From assembly GCF_023516455.1 (NCBI RefSeq), contig NZ_JAMGBA010000003.1, positions 62,001 to 126,000 on the forward strand: DNA of 64,000 nt, in the 5' to 3' direction. The notes under the pieces were generated by a model. It was not told the DNA's origin, searched no databases, and was given only the letters and a program-made list of their open reading frames with translations. Shown one piece after another: positions 36,907-52,296 of the stretch; positions within the stretch are counted from its first letter, which is position 1, and each line of letters opens with the position of its first letter. Position numbers and translations under genes: made by a program. Origin of the DNA: Sphingomonas caseinilytica (GTDB lineage Bacteria > Pseudomonadota > Alphaproteobacteria > Sphingomonadales > Sphingomonadaceae).

Positions 36907-37641
36907 ATGCCCAAGAAGGAAAAAAAGGGGCGTCGACCGATTCCCAACTATCCAATTTTGGAAGGACACGTTCGAGACAAGAAAAAACTGATCCCTCCAA
37001 TTTTGGGTATTCCTCAAACGACATTTATTAGCACGATCGATCTAATATTTCCTGAGATTGTCTGGGTCGGAATCCTGCTTGAGTGGTATGGGCTACGTGA
37101 GGGAATTGAAGTTATTTCTAAAATTCTCAAGAAGTTGTGGAATGCGCAAACCAATGTGAATTGGTATCGATTTTCCGAGATCGCAGCGAATGGCGACAAG
37201 CTCACCATTATTTTGAACGAGGAAGAACTCGCTAACATCTCGGTCGCGTTTGCAGCATTCAGATTGACCTATGATTGGCCAGGACTTGAATGGGCAACGT
37301 CGCACGATGAGGCTGAAGAGGCAAAACGGCGAGTGGAATTGACAGTCCGAAAATATGCCAATCGGTTCGACCAGCCATACCTTACTGTTGTCTCAACTAT
37401 CATTTATGCGATGGCAATTGCGGATAAGATGAAGTTCGCAACGGGTACGGTGCCTGACATTGAAGCCATTGTAATCGACTGGGGTTCGGACAGGGCAGAA
37501 ATGGCTGCATGCTCAGTTCGAGCCTGTTCAATGGCTTTCTTCCCGCATGATGGCTCCGAAGAAAGCGAGGATTGGTGCAAGCATTTTTGGCGCAAAAACT
37601 ACCAAACGAGCAGCTGTGAGTGGAATGAGCACGCAATATGA
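36907..37641 (+). CDS. Unknown accessory protein, partner of a DUF5677-like protein
   Basis: This 244-residue protein is not recognised. It begins with a very basic stretch (MPKKEKKGRRPIPNYP), followed by LIPPILGIPQTTFISTIDLI and hydrophobic helices around FPEIVWVGILLEWYGLREG. An acidic middle and a Cys/Trp-containing end follow. Codon use and base composition are more AT-rich than the flanking genes (many AT-ending codons), suggesting recent acquisition. It overlaps the next gene by 17 bp, so the two are likely translated together. A GGAGG ribosome binding site lies about 10 bases before the ATG. Function unknown; a two-gene cargo or defence module is only a guess. Confidence 0.65.
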   Translation: MPKKEKKGRRPIPNYPILEGHVRDKKKLIPPILGIPQTTFISTIDLIFPEIVWVGILLEWYGLREGIEVISKILKKLWNAQTNVNWYRFSEIAANGDKLTIILNEEELANISVAFAAFRLTYDWPGLEWATSHDEAEEAKRRVELTVRKYANRFDQPYLTVVSTIIYAMAIADKMKFATGTVPDIEAIVIDWGSDRAEMAACSVRACSMAFFPHDGSEESEDWCKHFWRKNYQTSSCEWNEHAI

Positions 37642-38428
37642 CGCCATAGGCCGGTTTGGGTTCCGGCTTTGCCAGAACATCTCGGACAATCTCACTGAGC
37701 GCACCGCGGATTTTCGCGGCGGAGACGGCTTTGAGACGGCGGTGAACTCAGTCCTATCGACACTCCTTGCGCGCCAGTCGGCATTGGCAATCGGACTCGC
37801 CGAAAGCCCCTTAACTTGGAGCGGGCACATTGCTCCCCTTGTTCTTCGATCCATGATCGATCTTCTTATCACGTACCGATGGATACTGCTCGACCCGCGA
37901 CAGCGATCACAAGAATACATTAGCTATGGACTTGGAACTGAAAAGCTTCTGACTGCTCACTACCAACAAAAGCTAGAAGATGGATTTGAAGGAGCAGACG
38001 TAAAGCGCATTATGGAGGCAAATATGGCTTGGATTGAGAGCCAGCAATTTCAAATGTTCATCGCAGTCAACCTAGGGTCCTGGAGTGGCTCCTCGGTCCG
38101 AAAAATGTGCGATGAAATTGGTGATCCAGATTTGTACAAATTTTCGTACACGCCGTTCAGCTCCTGCGTGCATAATATGTGGAATCACGTTGGCAAGTGG
38201 AATGCCCGCACCTGTGACAATCCTCTCCACAAACAGCATGCAGTCGGAGTAATCCGTGATGTATGGCCAATTGTCGATTTCGTCTTCAGGGCCTGCAAAT
38301 ACTTGGAATTGGTACTGGATGAATTTGACCGATATTATGAATATTCATCGAACTTGGATACGCCTATTACGGCGTTTAACGCTGCAGTGCAGGAACTAAG
38401 CGAAGAATGGGAAAAAGAAGACGACTAA
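37625..38428 (+). CDS. DUF5677-like protein
   Basis: This 267-residue mostly helical protein resembles the DUF5677 family. LLARQSALAIGLAESPLTWS, APLVLRSMIDLLITYRWILL and YKFSYTPFSSCVHNMWNHVG, with conserved Arg and His residues, are the features I rely on. DUF5677 proteins are of unknown function and often occur on variable genome patches. I start at MSTQYDAIGRFG because the longer frame lies inside the preceding gene. The gene shares the AT-rich composition of its partner. It ends about 50 bp before the convergent GNAT gene. Confidence 0.65.
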   Translation: MSTQYDAIGRFGFRLCQNISDNLTERTADFRGGDGFETAVNSVLSTLLARQSALAIGLAESPLTWSGHIAPLVLRSMIDLLITYRWILLDPRQRSQEYISYGLGTEKLLTAHYQQKLEDGFEGADVKRIMEANMAWIESQQFQMFIAVNLGSWSGSSVRKMCDEIGDPDLYKFSYTPFSSCVHNMWNHVGKWNARTCDNPLHKQHAVGVIRDVWPIVDFVFRACKYLELVLDEFDRYYEYSSNLDTPITAFNAAVQELSEEWEKEDD

Positions 38429-45020: not shown

Positions 45021-45515
45021 TCAGCCGATCAATCCGTGTGCCCTAAGGCCCTCCAAAACGGCCGCAACGGCGGCGCGGCATTGTTCGTCGACCACCGTCC
45101 CGCCGGCAGGGTCAGGGATGGCCGGCTGGCGTCCGCGCAACACATTTTGCCCGTCGATACGCACTTCCCGGCAGCGGGCAATTCCCGCTTCCCAGCCGCC
45201 CGAGCGCCACTGAAAAATCTCCCTACTGCTCTTGTCAGTGACGCTAAGTCCCTCCGTCGGCGCGATAAATCGCCATCCCCCGGCGGTGAAACAGGCAATC
45301 GAACCGCCCTCGCCCTGCCAATCTCCCAACGCCGCCTCCTCGATCAGATAGCAGTTGCCGATTTCCGGGTCCTCCGGCGGTTCGGCTTGCGGCGGGCCTT
45401 CGACGATAGGGCAAAGCAGCATCGCAATCCGCTCCAGCGCCTCATTGTGTGTCAGTTCCTTTTGGACCTGGCCGGGGGCCAGCAAGGGAATTTGAAAACG
45501 CGCGGTCTGCTCCAT
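45021..45515 (-). CDS. DUF2793 protein of the gene-transfer-agent cluster
   Basis: This 164-residue protein begins ARFQIPLLAPGQVQKELTHN and contains EIGNCYLIEEAALGDWQGEG and GGWRFIAPTEGLSV, the DUF2793 pattern. DUF2793 genes are commonly the last gene of GTA/prophage tail clusters in alphaproteobacteria and may encode fibre-associated proteins. It follows the tail-tip gene by 10 bp on the same strand. The rest of the GTA structural region is missing here, so its present use is doubtful. Confidence 0.82.
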   Translation of the reverse strand: MEQTARFQIPLLAPGQVQKELTHNEALERIAMLLCPIVEGPPQAEPPEDPEIGNCYLIEEAALGDWQGEGGSIACFTAGGWRFIAPTEGLSVTDKSSREIFQWRSGGWEAGIARCREVRIDGQNVLRGRQPAIPDPAGGTVVDEQCRAAVAAVLEGLRAHGLIG

Positions 45516-45525
45516 GTGATTCCTT

Positions 45526-47154
45526 TCAAAGGGTGATGCTGACGCCGCGCGGCCGGCTCAATGCCATTGGACCGACGGTGCGAATCTCGATTTCTATCGG
45601 CTGGCCGGCGTCGGCGTGGAGCGCTGAAGCATTGAGAATCACCTCTGGCCGGTCGCTCTCCAGTGACAGTTCGCCTTCGGGTCCGATGATGTTCACCAGA
45701 TAATGTTCGGAAAATGGGTCCGCCGGCACGCCGACCCCGTCATTCCAGGACCAGCCCTGATGACTCCTGCGAACCCAACTGATGCGGACCGACTCTCCAT
45801 CGCGTCGCGCGCGGAGGTGGCAAACCGACGGCGGCCGGATGGCTTCTCCGCTGACCATCCGCTGCGCTTCCGGCAGCGGTGCGACATCCCCGATGCCGTG
45901 CGCAACCGCCCTCAACACCGCACCTGCCGTGCCCGACGGCAGGTCGATCGCCGCCAGCGCCGTCGAATCAATCAGGCAGAATCGCTCTCCAACCCGGTGG
46001 TTCGCACCCGCCCATTCCGTGCCCCGCCGCCCGCGCAGCAGGCGCGATAGTCGGTACCGCCCATGCTCCAGCCGTTCCGCCCGGCCGAACTGAATCAGCT
46101 CATCCCCAACCATCGCCAGGTTCGCGCCGGCCGTCAGCGCGTCCTCATCGGCATTCAGAAGCAACTGGTCCGAATAGGCGAGCCGCACCGTCACGCTCGA
46201 CAAAAGATCGAGGGTCAGAGGCATCCTATGATCGAGCATCGTCGTAGCAGTGCCCAAAACCGCGCGACGTCCAAGCGCCAAACCGGGCCGCGGCTGCTGC
46301 CCCGACCAAAGTTCCACCGGCACCGGCTTCCATCGCCCCCCACTCGATGCGGCAGCGAATAGCGTCGGCCTCGCCTCCGGCAGGTCGCCCATGGCGGGAA
46401 GCTCGATCAGCGCCATCTCGCTCCGGCCAATGGGCTCGTCACGGTCGGGAACGGTTCGTCCCGGATCGGCTGGCAGACCTGCGACTTCGGCCGCACCAGC
46501 TTCCGCTTCGATGACGACCGCCATCCCGTCGATTTCCGCGCTTGTAACCACCATGGATCGCGTCGATCCGGGCAGCCGTATCTGGTCGCCGGGTTTCATC
46601 TCCATGCGCGACGGGGGCAGCCTCAGACGTACGCCGCTTGCTGCCTGCCACTTCCGTGCTAGGCGCTGCTCTGCCCATTGCTTGGCCTCGGCAGCGACAA
46701 GCACCGCCGGGATTTCGATCCGCTCTTCTACCGCGCCGCCGCCACCGCTCGAAGCCCGCATCTGGCCGGCCTGAAAGTCCCTGTCGGCGTCATGATAGAT
46801 AATGCATTGGCTAGCGGGCAGGCTTGAATCTCCCCGCCGCAGCCGTTCGACACACGGCCGATCCCTACCGTCCGCATCACACCCAAGCTCATTCGCATCC
46901 AGTTGCACCGGCTCAGACGCCGCCGCCCCGCTGAGCTTTCCGTCCCGTTCAGCAAGGGGCAGTCCATCATGCTCGACCAGCGGCCGGATAGCGTCCGCGA
47001 TTGACGAACCATGCGCCGCATAACCCACAATCGCACGGCCTTCGCCCAGCTCGATCAGCCCGCCAGTAGCGTCCGCGACCACTTCGGCCGTTGAAACCGG
47101 CGCCTCGTCGGCCTCGACCTCGAACGTCATCATGCGCCCGAATAACCATCCCAT
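45526..47154 (-). CDS. GTA tail-tip/host-specificity protein, N-terminally shortened
   Basis: This 542-residue protein corresponds to the C-terminal half of the GTA tail-tip protein. It shows WAEQRLARKWQAASGVRLRL, RMEMKPGDQIRLPG, GRYRLSRLLRGRRGTEWAGA and VGERFCLIDSTALAAIDLP, ending with RPRGVSITL. Full GTA homologues are much longer, with an N-terminal region that includes a TIM-barrel-like domain in RcGTA. That part is absent: the frame begins about 20 bp from a dispersed repeat (47174-47247). I therefore consider it the retained end of a deletion. Whether the short form is still made is unknown. Confidence 0.75.
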   Translation of the reverse strand: MGWLFGRMMTFEVEADEAPVSTAEVVADATGGLIELGEGRAIVGYAAHGSSIADAIRPLVEHDGLPLAERDGKLSGAAASEPVQLDANELGCDADGRDRPCVERLRRGDSSLPASQCIIYHDADRDFQAGQMRASSGGGGAVEERIEIPAVLVAAEAKQWAEQRLARKWQAASGVRLRLPPSRMEMKPGDQIRLPGSTRSMVVTSAEIDGMAVVIEAEAGAAEVAGLPADPGRTVPDRDEPIGRSEMALIELPAMGDLPEARPTLFAAASSGGRWKPVPVELWSGQQPRPGLALGRRAVLGTATTMLDHRMPLTLDLLSSVTVRLAYSDQLLLNADEDALTAGANLAMVGDELIQFGRAERLEHGRYRLSRLLRGRRGTEWAGANHRVGERFCLIDSTALAAIDLPSGTAGAVLRAVAHGIGDVAPLPEAQRMVSGEAIRPPSVCHLRARRDGESVRISWVRRSHQGWSWNDGVGVPADPFSEHYLVNIIGPEGELSLESDRPEVILNASALHADAGQPIEIEIRTVGPMALSRPRGVSITL

Positions 47155-47173
47155 CTGATTTCCCCGTAATAGT

Positions 47174-47247
47174 CGTCATCGCGAGGAGCGAAGCGACGTG
47201 GCGATCCAGGAAGGACTCTGGATTGCTTCGCTACGCTCGCAATGACG
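47174..47247. repeat. Dispersed palindromic repeat, copy B
   Basis: It runs from CGTCATCGCGAGGAGCG to CGCTCGCAATGACG and is a close relative of the copy at 25784-25859. It lies exactly where the GTA tail gene loses its N-terminal part, so it may mark the deletion junction. Confidence 0.85.
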
Positions 47248-47272
47248 GAGTTCGCCTAATTGGCCGCTGTCG

Positions 47273-48103
47273 TTACATCACACCCATCAACCGCGGCACC
47301 TTCTCGGCCCACCATGCGGTGTTCCAAAGCGCATGCACCACCACCGCACATGGCAGATAGGCCGCGGCGAAAATCCAGTAGGCGCGGTGCACACGCCCGT
47401 TCCTCACCACGTCCCAAACGAACATCGGCGACAGGGCCAGCAACGTATAAAGATCCACCGTGATCGGATTTCCCGGCATGGTCTGCGGCAACCACGGAAT
47501 GCGGTCGATTCCCGCCGGCAGCGGGATCGCCGTCGCCAGGATCATCATCCTTTTGTGAAGCCCGGCGTTCCCGCCCCGCGCCTTCAATCCGATGACAATG
47601 AACAGCGGGAACAACAGCCCGATCCGAAGCTGCAGCAGGGTAATATTGTTCCAGAACGCAAGCGCCTGCTCCGCACCTGCTTTCGCTTCCGGCGTCGGCG
47701 CATTCTGCGCTCCGTACCACAGCTGGTGATACATGGTCGGCACCAGCACGAACCCGACGATCACCACCACGACCGCAAGCACCATCCCGGCAACACCAAG
47801 CTGCATGTGAAGCGCCTTGCGCCCCGTCGCCATCAGCCAGCTTTGCGTGAGCAGCAGCAACAGGAACGCCCCCATCACCACCGCATGCATGTGCAGCACG
47901 ATCGGGAACGGCGGCCGCAGCCCGGCTCGCACCATCTCGATCTTCATCAGCGAGTCCGGGACGAACCCGGCCAGCACGATGGCGATGAACCATGCCGCCA
48001 TGAACACGAAGATCCATCGATCGATCGCGTGCGCGCGCGGCGTTCCAGAAAGATAATCCGGCTTCCGCTCTTCGAAGCCAACCGCCCCAGTCACAGTCGC
48101 CAT
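47273..48103 (-). CDS. Polytopic membrane protein of unknown function
   Basis: This 276-residue protein has about seven hydrophobic segments (WIFVFMAAWFIAIVLAGFVP, IVLHMHAVVMGAFLLLLLTQ, LGVAGMVLAVVVVIVGFVLV, LRIGLLFPLFIVIGLKA, DLYTLLALSPMFVWDVV, YWIFAAAYLPCAVVVHALW). Several His residues lie in or near them (VLHMHAVV, LHMQLG, LHKRMM), which could bind haem or copper, but no family is recognised. It has no relation to GTA genes. It occupies the gap between large terminase and tail-tip genes, so it was present near or moved into the deletion. Confidence 0.75.
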   Translation of the reverse strand: MATVTGAVGFEERKPDYLSGTPRAHAIDRWIFVFMAAWFIAIVLAGFVPDSLMKIEMVRAGLRPPFPIVLHMHAVVMGAFLLLLLTQSWLMATGRKALHMQLGVAGMVLAVVVVIVGFVLVPTMYHQLWYGAQNAPTPEAKAGAEQALAFWNNITLLQLRIGLLFPLFIVIGLKARGGNAGLHKRMMILATAIPLPAGIDRIPWLPQTMPGNPITVDLYTLLALSPMFVWDVVRNGRVHRAYWIFAAAYLPCAVVVHALWNTAWWAEKVPRLMGVM

Positions 48104-48162
48104 GGCAAACCCCCTGCCAATCGCCCGTCGATTGGGGACGTACCACCATTCGCATCGGCAGC

Positions 48163-49518
48163 CTACAGCATCCGCACCCGTGGAACGCCGCTCCGCGTTT
48201 CGCTCAGCTCCTTCAATGCCCAGATGCAGGCATCGGCCCGGTCGGGCGACCGGCTCGGTCCCTCATATTTTCCGCCGACCTGAAGCCCCGAAAGCTCCGC
48301 CTCCAGTTCCGGGAAACAGCCCGCCAGGAATGCCTGCCCCTTCTCGAACCGGATCGCGATCGGCTCGGCCCGTGCCGACTTGCCGCGCGTCGCATGGACC
48401 AGCTTCACTCGAAGCGCGGGATCCGCGGCGTTGAGCACGCTCTTCACCATCGCCCCGCCCTGGTTGGCCTCGGCAATGACATGGCTTGCGCTCCATTCCG
48501 CCGACGCCCGCGCAACCGCCATTGCCCACCCCTCCGGGCTGACGCCATCGACGGTCCGATCGGCCAGCACGTAAAGCTTCCCGTCCCGCCGCCCCGCCAC
48601 CACAATCCCGCAAGCATCGCCGCCCACCGAAACCGGCGGATCGACGCCGACAACGATGCGCTCAAACCCCTCTCCCTTTGAGGGAAAGGGCGACTCGCCG
48701 AAGGCGAGCGGGGTGAGGGGTTGAACCCGCGCCCCTTCCAGCAACACCCTCGGAAACAAGCTCCCCTCCGCCTCGCTCAACAGCTCTCCGTCCAGCTCCT
48801 GCCGCCCAAGCCGGGTCCCGCCATAAGTGGCCAGCATCACCTGCACGAACCTCTTCGGCAGGCAGATATTGTCCTTGGTCCGGCCATGGGTCTCGACGGT
48901 CCATTCCTGCTTTCTGATCTGTTCCAGCAGCGGCCCCGGCCGCGGCGTTGTCGTGACCAGCACCCGGGGCCGCGATCCCAGCCGCAATCCCATCTGCATG
49001 TTGTTCCAGCTTTCTTCCGCGCGACGCCATTTAGCGAGCTCATCCGCCCAGACGATGTGATGCTCCGGCCCGCGCAGCCCATCCGGATTATCGCCCGAGT
49101 AGAGCGTTGCGATGCTGCCGTTCGGCCAGGTCAGGCGATTGAGGCTCGGCTCCCATTTGACCGGCGAGCGATTGTTGCGCGCGATCGACAGAAGACCGCT
49201 CACGCCCTCGACCATCAGGTTTCGCGCCTCGTCGATCGTCGCACCGACAAGCGCGATCCGCCGAGGTCCGGCCCGGGCCAGCTTGTGGACCCATTCCGCC
49301 CCCGCCCTTGTCTTGCCGAATCCGCGCCCGGCCATCATCAGCCACACCCGCCACCCCTCGCCCGGCGGCGGCAGCTGGCTCTTGTGCGCCCACGTCTCGA
49401 ACGCCACGTCGAAGTCGAGCATGTCGCTGAACGACATGGCTTCGATGCGCTTCTCCTGTTCCTCAGGGCTCAGCGCCAGGAAACGCCGGAGTTGCGCCGG
49501 CGTAATGCCAAGGCTCAT
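48163..49518 (-). CDS. GTA/phage large terminase subunit
   Basis: This 451-residue DNA-packaging ATPase/nuclease has Walker A MMAGRGFGKTRAGAEWVHK, Walker B-like EHHIVWADELAKWRR, the motif III segment VLVTTTPRP and nuclease acidic positions in VVGVDPPVSVGGDACG and SPDRADACIWALKEL. It matches the GTA-type large terminase (RcGTA g2). An unusual stretch VQPLTPLAFGESPFPSKGEG is encoded by an inserted 58-bp palindromic repeat (48665-48722) that keeps the frame. The start overlaps the small-terminase stop (ATGA). Portal and capsid genes, which should follow, are absent. Confidence 0.9.
   Translation of the reverse strand: MSLGITPAQLRRFLALSPEEQEKRIEAMSFSDMLDFDVAFETWAHKSQLPPPGEGWRVWLMMAGRGFGKTRAGAEWVHKLARAGPRRIALVGATIDEARNLMVEGVSGLLSIARNNRSPVKWEPSLNRLTWPNGSIATLYSGDNPDGLRGPEHHIVWADELAKWRRAEESWNNMQMGLRLGSRPRVLVTTTPRPGPLLEQIRKQEWTVETHGRTKDNICLPKRFVQVMLATYGGTRLGRQELDGELLSEAEGSLFPRVLLEGARVQPLTPLAFGESPFPSKGEGFERIVVGVDPPVSVGGDACGIVVAGRRDGKLYVLADRTVDGVSPEGWAMAVARASAEWSASHVIAEANQGGAMVKSVLNAADPALRVKLVHATRGKSARAEPIAIRFEKGQAFLAGCFPELEAELSGLQVGGKYEGPSRSPDRADACIWALKELSETRSGVPRVRML
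48665..48722. repeat. 58-bp palindromic repeat inserted in frame in the large terminase gene
   Basis: The element has perfect 8-bp terminal inverted repeats (AACCCCTC / GAGGGGTT) and two internal hairpins (CCCTTTGAGGG and CTCGCCGAAGGCGAG). It resembles widespread short intergenic palindromes. Here it lies inside a coding region and adds about 19 residues without a stop or frameshift. Confidence 0.8.
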
Positions 49519-50006
49519 GGGCGTTCGTCAGCCTCGGCATCCTGGCGCCGCTTCAATCCCTCCAGCTTTTCGAGGATGCGCTCCCTGACTTCGGTCAGTT
49601 CATCCTCGCCGGGCTGATACTGCGCCGCATCGGCCGTATCCGCGTGCCGTTTCAGGAGCGCGACGGCCAGGCTCGTCGAATATTCCCGCATGATCCGGTC
49701 GCCATTCTTCGACGATCGGACCAGCTTGGGCGTGCCGATCATCGCCCGCTCCAGCAGGATCAGCTCCAGCTTCGCATAGCCTTCGCGCACCGCCTGCGCC
49801 CAACTGTTGCGGAACGCTGCGTCCGTTTGGCGCCGACGATGGGCCCAACTAGGGTGAAAACCCGCCGCCTTGGCCGATCGCAGCACATTGCATGTCTCTG
49901 CCAGCGACGCGAAGAAGATGTCGACCTGCTTCTCGGTAATGCGCTGCCAGGACGCACGGCAGCGCCTCAGCCGCGTCTTTCCCTCGACCACCTCTTTCAC
50001 CTGCAT
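49515..50006 (-). CDS. Putative GTA small terminase / DNA-binding packaging protein
   Basis: This 163-residue, basic, helical protein has a helix-turn-helix-like part (QRITEKQVDIFFASLAETCN, VLRSAKAAGFHPSWAHRRRQ), a middle with WAQAVREGYAKLELILLERA, and a long charged C-terminal helix. Position directly before the large terminase with an ATGA overlap fits the small terminase. The first HTH-like segment (NVLRSAKAAGF) recalls phage small-terminase DNA-binding domains. The IS1595-type element begins 71 bp upstream and has probably cut the gene from its original promoter. Confidence 0.72.
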   Translation of the reverse strand: MQVKEVVEGKTRLRRCRASWQRITEKQVDIFFASLAETCNVLRSAKAAGFHPSWAHRRRQTDAAFRNSWAQAVREGYAKLELILLERAMIGTPKLVRSSKNGDRIMREYSTSLAVALLKRHADTADAAQYQPGEDELTEVRERILEKLEGLKRRQDAEADERP

Positions 50007-50068
50007 TCTCCATGCAAAAAGGGCCGGAACTTGCGTCCCGGCCCCGAATCACACTTACCGACTGTTCC

Positions 50069-50076
50069 GACTTTGT
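50069..50076. repeat. Target-site duplication, left copy (GACTTTGT)
   Basis: This 8-bp sequence directly precedes the left end of the IS1595-family element and recurs exactly at 52238-52245. Eight-bp duplications are characteristic of this family. Confidence 0.9.
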
Positions 50077-50133
50077 GGCAATTATATACTTAAGAAAGCA
50101 AGGCAATGAACCAACGAACCAAAGCGGAACAGC

Positions 50134-50805
50134 CTATGGTAATGAAGGTGTTTCAGGTTCTGCGCTCTGTGGAGGCGGAGGCTGATTCAGCCACTGGCAA
50201 AATACTGGTCCGGGCTCTTCCGCACGGAGGGATGCTCTAATCCATCGGCCATCTGGCAATTCGAGAATGTGGTTGTTGAGCGCCTTGGCTAGCGACGTGA
50301 CCGAGTCCCGGATGAAATCTAAGCTGTAATCTTTGTTTCTCTTCTTCAGCACCGCTCGCAGGTGGCCAGTGTGAAGTCGGTCGCAGGAGGTTATGTAGAC
50401 TTTACCAACGAGGTCGCGGACAACCGTATTGGTAGCCCGTGGAAGCATGACATAGACCGTCTCTGGGCTTTGCTCGTAGAACTCCACCGCCTGCGGAAAC
50501 GCCTTGGGGTTGAGCTTACTCAATTCCTCCATCAAGTCTTCGGGGTTCCATTTGTCGATGAATTTCTTGGTCCGGAAATCTGGGTGTTCATTGTGCGCCA
50601 CCAGGACCGCTAAGGCGATTAGTTCAGTCGATCGGCGGAGCTGCATGTAGCAAAATTCGGCAACGAAGCTCAGTTGAATGTTATCATGCCGGTATCGTTC
50701 GACAGCTTCCTCAAGCTGGCCATTGACAGACAGCAAGCGAATTTTGGCCTCGGACATAAGTGAGGCATACCAGTCCAGAATGTCATTCTCTGGGATTTGA
50801 ACCAT
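50134..50805 (-). CDS. IS passenger gene, unknown protein
   Basis: This 223-residue helical protein has MVQIPENDILDWYASLMSEA, IQLSFVAEFCYMQLRRSTEL and LVGKVYITSCDRLHTGHLRA, with a Pro-rich acidic tail (QPPPPQSAEPETPSLP). I do not recognise a family. The N-terminal helices with conserved Arg/His recall HEPN-like bundles, but this is weak. I prefer ATG 50805, with GGTG just upstream, to GTG 50814. It ends 57 bp inside the left end of the IS element, so it is cargo of the element. Confidence 0.6.
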   Translation of the reverse strand: MVQIPENDILDWYASLMSEAKIRLLSVNGQLEEAVERYRHDNIQLSFVAEFCYMQLRRSTELIALAVLVAHNEHPDFRTKKFIDKWNPEDLMEELSKLNPKAFPQAVEFYEQSPETVYVMLPRATNTVVRDLVGKVYITSCDRLHTGHLRAVLKKRNKDYSLDFIRDSVTSLAKALNNHILELPDGRWIRASLRAEEPGPVFCQWLNQPPPPQSAEPETPSLP

Positions 50806-50929
50806 GTCAGACACCGATCAAAAGAAAGAGGACGAGGTGTTGCGGCGGATGCTGGCGACCAAGCCCGCCCCGCACAAGGCCAAGAAGGTGAGCGATGGAA
50901 AACGAGCCCAGCCAACTTCGAATGAGTGA
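50804..50929 (+). CDS. IS passenger gene, 41-residue charged peptide
   Basis: The frame encodes MSDTDQKKEDEVLRRMLATK then PAPHKAKKVSDGKRAQPTSNE. Small proteins with EVLRRML and a Pro/His/Lys stretch occur near mobile genes in alphaproteobacteria as far as I recall. The start codon shares the palindrome CATG with the start of the divergent passenger gene, so only one may be used. GGGA lies eight bases upstream. Function unknown. Confidence 0.5.
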   Translation: MSDTDQKKEDEVLRRMLATKPAPHKAKKVSDGKRAQPTSNE

Positions 50930-50936
50930 CGCCCTG

Positions 50937-51161
50937 CTAGGGGTTGTCGGTTCTCAGGTCCGGAAGAGTGGCTTTGAGCAGTTCTTTGGCGTGACCTTGA
51001 GCCTCTGGACTGAGGCTCGCTAGCGCGTACCGATAAAGGTCCGCGCCCTCCTGCTCAGTGATTGTTTTCTTGGCCGCAAGCAGTTCGATCAATCGCGCAA
51101 CCAACCTATAGGTGAATATAGCTGTTGCGCCAGGATCAGCGTTGAACGTTGGCGTGCCCAT
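50937..51161 (-). CDS. IS passenger gene, 74-residue protein
   Basis: This small protein begins MGTPTFNADPGATAIFTYRL, continues with the helix VARLIELLAAKKTITEQEGA and ends with a second helix (ASLSPEAQGHAKELLKATLP). It looks like a two-helix domain of unknown role. GGAGGG lies five bases before the chosen ATG, which is a good ribosome binding site. It lies between the transposase gene and the other passengers, within the IS boundaries, and is probably transcribed after the transposase. Confidence 0.55.
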   Translation of the reverse strand: MGTPTFNADPGATAIFTYRLVARLIELLAAKKTITEQEGADLYRYALASLSPEAQGHAKELLKATLPDLRTDNP

Positions 51162-51269
51162 ACATTCCCTCCAATACTGCGGAAGATTCGGCTGCACGAA
51201 GCTAGCGCTCACCATCATCGTGTCCAGCGCTTACGGCGCTCACCAATTACAGGCTTTGCCTTGTAGTAA

Positions 51270-52175
51270 TCAGGCTGCGAGCGGACCAATCCGCCGATAG
51301 GTCAGGCGCTTGCCAGCAATGCCCTTGAGGCACAGTTCGGAGCGCTCGAAATCGTTGTTGTTGCGAGTGTTGTAACGGAAGTCGAACTCCACCGTGTAGC
51401 GATGCAAATGCGCTGCGCTGAGATGGTGGTAGGTGCCGACAACGCCACGCTTGAAAATGGAGAAGAAGTTCTCTGCGGTGTTGCTGTGAATGCCGCCAGC
51501 CTTGGCGAACTCACCGGCACCATGAATGACGCGACCATGCTGTGCGAACTCACGGCCAATGCCCCAATAGAAACGGGCGTCATCGGTCATCAGGGTTGAG
51601 GCGCGATCAACGTTGGTAACCAGCGCAGAGCGGACGTTGCCACCGTGGATGTTGGCAATGTGGAAGGAACGGGCGCGACCGTCGCGCTCGACGAGTGAAA
51701 AGACCATCTTCTTGGGCGCTGGAGCGCGATAGGCGCGGCGGTGAGCCTTACCACCAACAAATGTCTCGTCGGCTTCCACGACCACGCCAGAGCCGCCCAG
51801 AGGCGAAGGGTTCTCGTCCTTCATGGCCTCGCGGATACGATGGCACATGAACCAGGCCGTCTTGTAGGTAACGCCAAGCATGCGTTCGATTTGCTTGGCG
51901 CTCATGCCCTTCTTGGAGGCGCAAAGCAGATGCGTAGCGAGCAGCCACTTGTGCAAGCCGATCTTGGAGCGCTCGAACACGGTGCCGACTGTGACAGTGA
52001 ACTGCTCACGGCAGTTGTTGCACTGGTACAGGCCGGGACGGTGGTGAGATCCGGAAAGCCTGGTTGCGGCAATCAGGCCGCAGTGCGGACACTCTGCACC
52101 ATCGGGCCAGCGAATAGCTTCTAGGTGCTCGCGGGCTGCATCCTCATTGGTGAAGCGGGGTGCGGTAATGTCCAT
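51270..52175 (-). CDS. IS1595-family transposase
   Basis: This 301-residue transposase has an N-terminal zinc ribbon (ECPHCGLIAATR with YQCNNCREQF), then TVGTVFERSKIGLHKWLLAT, and the catalytic core typical of ISXO2/IS1595 enzymes: VVVEADETFVGGKAHRRAY, STLMTDDARFYWGIG and GIHSNTAENFFSIFKRGVVG (DDE/N-type residues). The Tyr/His-rich end LHRYTVEFDFRYNTRN is also family-like. The full length and intact motifs suggest it is functional. GGAG lies eight bases before the ATG. Confidence 0.95.
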   Translation of the reverse strand: MDITAPRFTNEDAAREHLEAIRWPDGAECPHCGLIAATRLSGSHHRPGLYQCNNCREQFTVTVGTVFERSKIGLHKWLLATHLLCASKKGMSAKQIERMLGVTYKTAWFMCHRIREAMKDENPSPLGGSGVVVEADETFVGGKAHRRAYRAPAPKKMVFSLVERDGRARSFHIANIHGGNVRSALVTNVDRASTLMTDDARFYWGIGREFAQHGRVIHGAGEFAKAGGIHSNTAENFFSIFKRGVVGTYHHLSAAHLHRYTVEFDFRYNTRNNNDFERSELCLKGIAGKRLTYRRIGPLAA

Positions 52176-52237
52176 GGTGCGTCTCCGTTGAGAAACACCA
52201 TAGATTTCAACACTGCTTTGTCAAGTATATAATTGCC

Positions 52238-52245
52238 GACTTTGT
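52238..52245. repeat. Target-site duplication, right copy (GACTTTGT)
   Basis: This is an exact repeat of 50069-50076 directly after the right end of the IS1595-family element. Confidence 0.9.
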
Positions 52246-52296
52246 GCCAAATCAGCGTGACGATGTCAAGTGTTTTTTACCGATTTGGTTAGCCAC

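Follow-up and report, generated by a model that had tools for sequence, protein, structure and literature searches.

A passenger-bearing IS1595-family element and its surroundings

The window (the whole stretch of 64,000 nucleotides of Sphingomonas caseinilytica DNA that was analysed) contains a mobile element with the features listed in Table 1. An earlier note, made from the sequence alone, had described a complete element of the IS1595 family that carries extra genes and whose edges were fixed by matching inverted ends, an exact 8-bp duplication and an intact transposase, and this description was confirmed. The terminal inverted repeats (TIRs) are 24 nt long and complementary at 22 of the 24 bases (92%), identical copies of the octamer GACTTTGT flank them, and the 301-residue transposase exceeds the cut-offs of the curated models, with 102.9 bits for PF12762 (cut-off 27) and 52.8 bits for PF12760 (25.4) in Pfam, and 178.8 bits for NF033547 (75) in NCBIfam. 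Curated transposase models, TIRs and an 8-bp target duplication are all traits of the IS1595 family; transposase matches on plasmids carried the annotation "IS1595 family transposase" only, with no subgroup. Between the repeats lie genes that do not serve transposition, and relatives hold other genes at this place, as is the criterion for a tIS. IS1595-family elements with passengers form a known class under this name, with MTnSag1/tISSag10 and tISCpe8 as examples in the part of PMC5704250 available to us.

The three ORFs of 223, 41 and 74 residues that had been named as passengers all exist, but the smaller 74-residue frame is an inner start in a 93-codon ORF, and the 41-residue peptide, here called c41, turned out to be a conserved part of the element. 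The 223-residue protein lies in the exchangeable slot. In the organization that we propose, slot 1 would be the interval between the transposase and c41, and slot 2 that from the shared CATG to the far end. Searches for relatives of the 93-codon ORF in slot 1 found none.

Table 1. Features of the element in the window
Feature	Position	Strand	Basis
Whole element	50077-52237		TIRs and flanking duplication
Target-site duplication GACTTTGT, left copy	50069-50076		sequence; identical to 52238-52245
Terminal inverted repeat, cargo end	50077-50100		pairs with 52214-52237
Passenger in slot 2, 223 residues, HEPN-like predicted fold	50134-50805	-	start from relatives P0002/P0003
CATG shared by two overlapping start codons, c41 (+) and passenger (-)	50803-50806		sequence
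c41, 41-residue companion peptide gene, kept across the element family	50804-50929	+	
Slot-1 ORF, 93 codons (74 from inner ATG)	50937-51218	-	no relative detected
Transposase, IS1595-family, 301 residues	51270-52175	-	curated models
Terminal inverted repeat, transposase end	52214-52237		pairs with 50077-50100
Target-site duplication GACTTTGT, right copy	52238-52245		sequence

The earlier note had proposed looking for other genomic copies and for an empty site in related strains. The 2.78-Mb genome itself holds one match, the element described here. The empty-site check came out in favour of an insertion, in that the orthologous loci of congeneric species are uninterrupted, with the octamer diverged in those species. 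In a blastn search, the joined flanks matched 15 of 29 congeneric loci. In 11 of them the match extends 10 bases or more beyond the junction in both directions; two others touch it with three bases, and the last two cover the right side only. Eleven aligned congeneric loci (ten junction-spanning ones and L165) read through without an insert. The insertion stretch (50045-50076 and 52246-52290), which is conserved in 11 congeneric loci, lies upstream of terminase genes. Its minus strand includes a TTGACA that by eye resembles a promoter, and the element may therefore cut these genes off from their promoter. The terminase genes (small subunit, 49515-50006; large subunit, 48163-49518) belong to a remnant of a GTA-like cluster at 45021-50006 on the minus strand, which also includes an Rcc01698-like tail protein, matching the C-terminal part of the profile only, and a DUF2793 protein. 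Among the ORFs of 150 residues or more between the GTA-like genes, none resembled head genes by eye, and the middle of the cluster therefore seems deleted. Elsewhere in the window, a uvrA-like gene is followed by two plus-strand ORFs (36907-38428), which are 244 and 293 residues long.

c41, a companion gene of the element family

Loci for comparison were chosen by the resemblance of their transposase to that of the window. A relative of the transposase was found in 132 of the 396 genomes of the order; for the 223-residue protein the number was 7, with the own genome included. Of 40 loci taken from the order, 35 contain the transposase and the other five were taken for the 223-residue protein. 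A scan of genome contigs gave 573 confirmed places, 80 of which were used; by their titles these come mostly from alphaproteobacteria, with three metagenome-assembled genomes from other proteobacterial classes. Together with the window, this amounted to 118 transposase places, 110 of them distinct. Repeats with an exact 8-bp duplication were present at 80 of the distinct loci, repeats alone at 8, and neither at 22. The 80 elements with both measure 1824-3816 bp (median 2378 bp). In L043 (2653-7580), two different IS1595 elements lie head to tail with the same octamer, AAGAGGCG, bounding each; the cargo of the second includes a gene related to that of the 223-residue protein in the window. In L073 (3722-6975), a single element contains two modules of c41 plus cargo, which are 95% identical in their c41 stretches and 86% in their right ends.

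The c41 gene was matched in 87 of the 110 distinct loci at E<=0.05 and in 72 at E<=1e-5, and its strand is opposite to that of the transposase in 85 of the 87. In the genomes of the order, a profile made from 18 relatives gave 40 matches in 37 of the 396. Of the 34 matches with E<1e-8, 30 have a full transposase match no more than 1.5 kb away, and the other four (G140, G148, G354 and G062) lie near transposase remnants, which in G148 is a 17-residue stretch only (E 0.003). The six weaker matches occur in five genomes, and no transposase match was present around c41 in the three such stretches examined (L192, L193 and L196). Over 16 core codons of 18 sequences, pN/pS was 0.39 in frame, compared to 1.28-1.71 in four of the other frames and 0.48 in the one reverse frame with the same wobble position, and variation was 0.53 at third codon positions versus 0.23 at positions 1 and 2. 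Among 39 elements, c41 divergence followed transposase divergence (Mantel 0.53, p=0.001), which passenger homology hardly did (0.08, p=0.017). Judged from this comparison of sequences, c41 is shown to be a protein-coding gene that belongs to these elements. We also considered a chance ORF, which was rejected on the grounds of the recurrence near transposases and the in-frame pN/pS.

It could be argued that c41 matters as DNA or RNA, for example as a promoter, leader or recombination site, and not as a peptide. Its location directly upstream of the passenger start would fit this, as would the low ratio in one reverse frame, and a clear Shine-Dalgarno sequence was seen by eye for neither c41 nor the passenger. 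However, the higher variability of the third codon positions and the in-frame ratio speak for a peptide, and in L072 c41 lies behind the cargo genes and on their strand, which makes us consider this reading very improbable. Our best guess is that c41 regulates either transposition or the expression of the cargo. The open-licence literature that was searched held no account of it.

Cargo of the second slot and its edge

In the window, c41 and the gene for the 223-residue protein start head to head in the same CATG. The c41 start lies in a CATG at 54 of 85 loci, and in 46 of these 54 the same ATG also opens an ORF of 100 residues or more (46 of 85 overall), against an expectation of one frame in three (p=5e-15), a value somewhat favoured by our choosing, among several possible Met codons, the CATG one with the longest ORF. 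Pairs of closely related elements revealed what happens beyond this point. L050 and L083 are 94% identical by blastn over bases 1-1653 (ATG at 1650), have unrelated genes past the ATG, and match again in the last 24 bp, with different flanks. Between L087 and L088, identity is 95% as far as base 1616 (ATG at 1611), and the match resumes in the last 29 bp. These two share the duplication AAAATTTA and have flanks that are 86% and 93% identical, hence occupy one genomic site, and their passengers are only 25% identical, which indicates an in situ replacement of the cargo. With a common site and 95% identity up to the ATG, this pair rules out that the passengers came to differ by gradual divergence.

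In all six usable pair profiles, identity drops to 7-41% over the 27 bases past the ATG. The 20 bases that precede the ATG are already down to 70-75% in three of the pairs (L050/L083, L087/L088 and L089/L091), as if the first c41 codons had travelled with the cargo, and stand at 80-95% in L093/L089, L046/L086 and L040/L080, with no early drop. The global alignments of the window element with L039, of L155 with L156 and of L104 with L098 left register near the ATG and were omitted from the profiles; the comparison with L039 rests on blastn. Six pairs have transposases that are at least 90% identical, and one of these has detectably related passengers. Comparison of the elements showed that the slot-2 cargo varies as a block, which extends from the start codon to approximately 25-29 bp from the far end, also where the elements are otherwise almost identical and, for one pair, where they occupy one genomic site. 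No account of an exchange edged by a start codon was found in the open-licence literature searched.

The model of the window's 223-residue protein is a helical bundle, and its ten best structural matches are HEPN proteins (including 2hsb, 6m6u, 7ae6-7ae9 and 3o10). The family alignment has the invariant residues R23, Q55, R57, E61, A64, P104, H145 and H179 and no conserved Rx4-6H HEPN motif; an RLHTGH in the window's protein is missing from the other eight members. None of the four element proteins matched a nucleotidyltransferase (MNT) model in Pfam, NCBIfam or PADLOC. The 223-residue protein had no match in the phage or plasmid records and matches PHROG 13799, the function of which is given there as unknown. 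Foldseek alone gave no lead, nor did the literature on ISNwi1 and on HepS. Based on the model, the protein would be a HEPN-like member with an active site that is perhaps changed.

The motif R[ND]x3H marks HEPN RNases. It is present in 28 of the 46 head-to-head passengers, against a mean of 1.9 and a maximum of 8 in 500 shuffles, whereas the looser Rx4-6H, in 44 of 46 against a shuffle mean of 32.4, says little. The largest cargo ORF contains R[ND]x3H in 46 of 88 delimited elements (37 of 68 with c41 and 9 of 20 without), and at 150-300 amino acids the motif occurs in 46 of 79 largest cargo ORFs versus 8 of 131 ORFs flanking the contig-locus elements. When 20 passengers were compared with Pfam, only those of L047 (DUF4145) and L066 (GmrSD) scored above cut-off, with L043a and L076 just under it for DUF4145 and HEPN; of six further passengers none was above cut-off. 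PADLOC matched 10 of 20 proteins, which is not a rate since they were picked by hand, many for looking unlike HEPN. Both PD-Lambda-5 genes were found in each of L072, L131 and L148, PDC-S46 in L075 (without c41), part of PDC-M24B in L157, and weak NsnA matches in L066 and L123b, while the HEPN-like proteins of L076, L080, L088, L098 and L151 had no match. The cargo of L067, which does have c41, is HNH-like. Slot 1 contains recurring small genes, by eye GIY-YIG-like in a first set (L046, L067 and L111) and HTH-like in a second (L040, L050, L054, L068, L083 and L086-L088).

Interpretation and comparison with known systems

We propose, at a probability of about 55%, that these IS1595-family transposons consist of a fixed chassis and replaceable cargo that is exchanged by recombination and encodes mostly HEPN-like protective effectors. 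The chassis would comprise the ends, the transposase and c41. The exchange edge, together with the conserved c41, suggests recombination between elements, in which c41 would supply the homology at one edge of a swapped block and the terminal repeat that at the opposite edge. Most slot-2 genes would then be HEPN-like effectors acting on RNA, which may keep the element in place by guarding its host from phages or other mobile DNA. Such host protection is plausible, given that PD-Lambda-5 and many R[ND]x3H proteins are found as cargo of related elements. PD-Lambda-5 shielded E. coli from most phages tested, and 6 of the 21 systems of that study show remote HEPN similarity, according to the part of PMC9519451 that was accessible. 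A more far-reaching version, which we put forward tentatively, is a cargo-swapping platform for minimal immunity genes with c41 as a start-sharing recombination anchor and a self-fitting effector regulator; since the c41 leader would be antisense to the 5' end of the effector, each new effector would receive a fitting regulator.

The head-to-head arrangement can also be read as a toxin-antitoxin pair, with the passenger as the toxin and, as its antidote, either c41 or the c41 transcript, whose leader would be antisense to the passenger, making loss of the element costly. The head-to-head genes with a common start codon in 46 of 85 loci would agree with this. Pairs of HEPN toxin and MNT antitoxin are known, in one case also from a Tn3-family transposon in the available part of PMC7157771. 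Yet c41 accompanies cargo as unlike as HEPN-like, HNH-like and PD-Lambda-5 genes, it co-diverges with the transposase, and an MNT-like partner was not seen in the window element, so that we think a toxin-antitoxin pair unlikely. In an ordinary tIS, passengers would have been acquired independently many times, with no dedicated exchange, and the CATG would reflect selection for compact packing. Passengers of IS1595 elements are indeed already known from what PMC5704250 offered us, and exchange was deduced from few close pairs, two of them decisive among the six with transposases at least 90% identical. The break at the ATG in all six usable profiles, one pair at the same site, and the strong cargo bias to one motif argue against independent acquisition, which we regard as quite improbable.

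Should the chassis-and-cargo reading hold, this compact family combines a start-codon exchange edge, an element-borne peptide and a mostly unannotated R[ND]x3H pool beside anti-phage genes. Cargo exchange in a simple insertion sequence becomes directly testable, and the family points to candidate defence genes that were missed by the family libraries used here.

The IS1595-type transposase, inverted repeats and passenger genes are shared with the tIS described in PMC5704250, of which the part at hand describes neither c41, nor a cargo edge at a start codon, nor a bias to HEPN-like or defence genes. As far as sequence comparison goes, what is new relative to this class is c41 as a companion gene, exchangeable cargo, and biased passengers across 110 loci. 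Tn3-family toxin-antitoxin transposons likewise have small toxin-like cargo, including a HEPN/MNT pair in TnSod9, but differ in transposase family and have recognisable toxin-antitoxin pairs near the resolution site (PMC7157771, as far as available), whereas neither a resolvase nor an MNT partner was seen in the window element. In the accessible part of PMC8649781, Tn7-like transposons resemble the family in their diverse defence cargo, which includes HEPN proteins, and are large with several transposition proteins, in contrast to the 1.8-3.8 kb and single transposase here. The 223-residue protein may resemble HEPN toxins and domains in its predicted fold, but its family is without the conserved Rx4-6H and the element without an MNT gene. 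Finally, both genes of PD-Lambda-5, as described in the part of PMC9519451 available, are cargo in three related elements and are absent from the window element.
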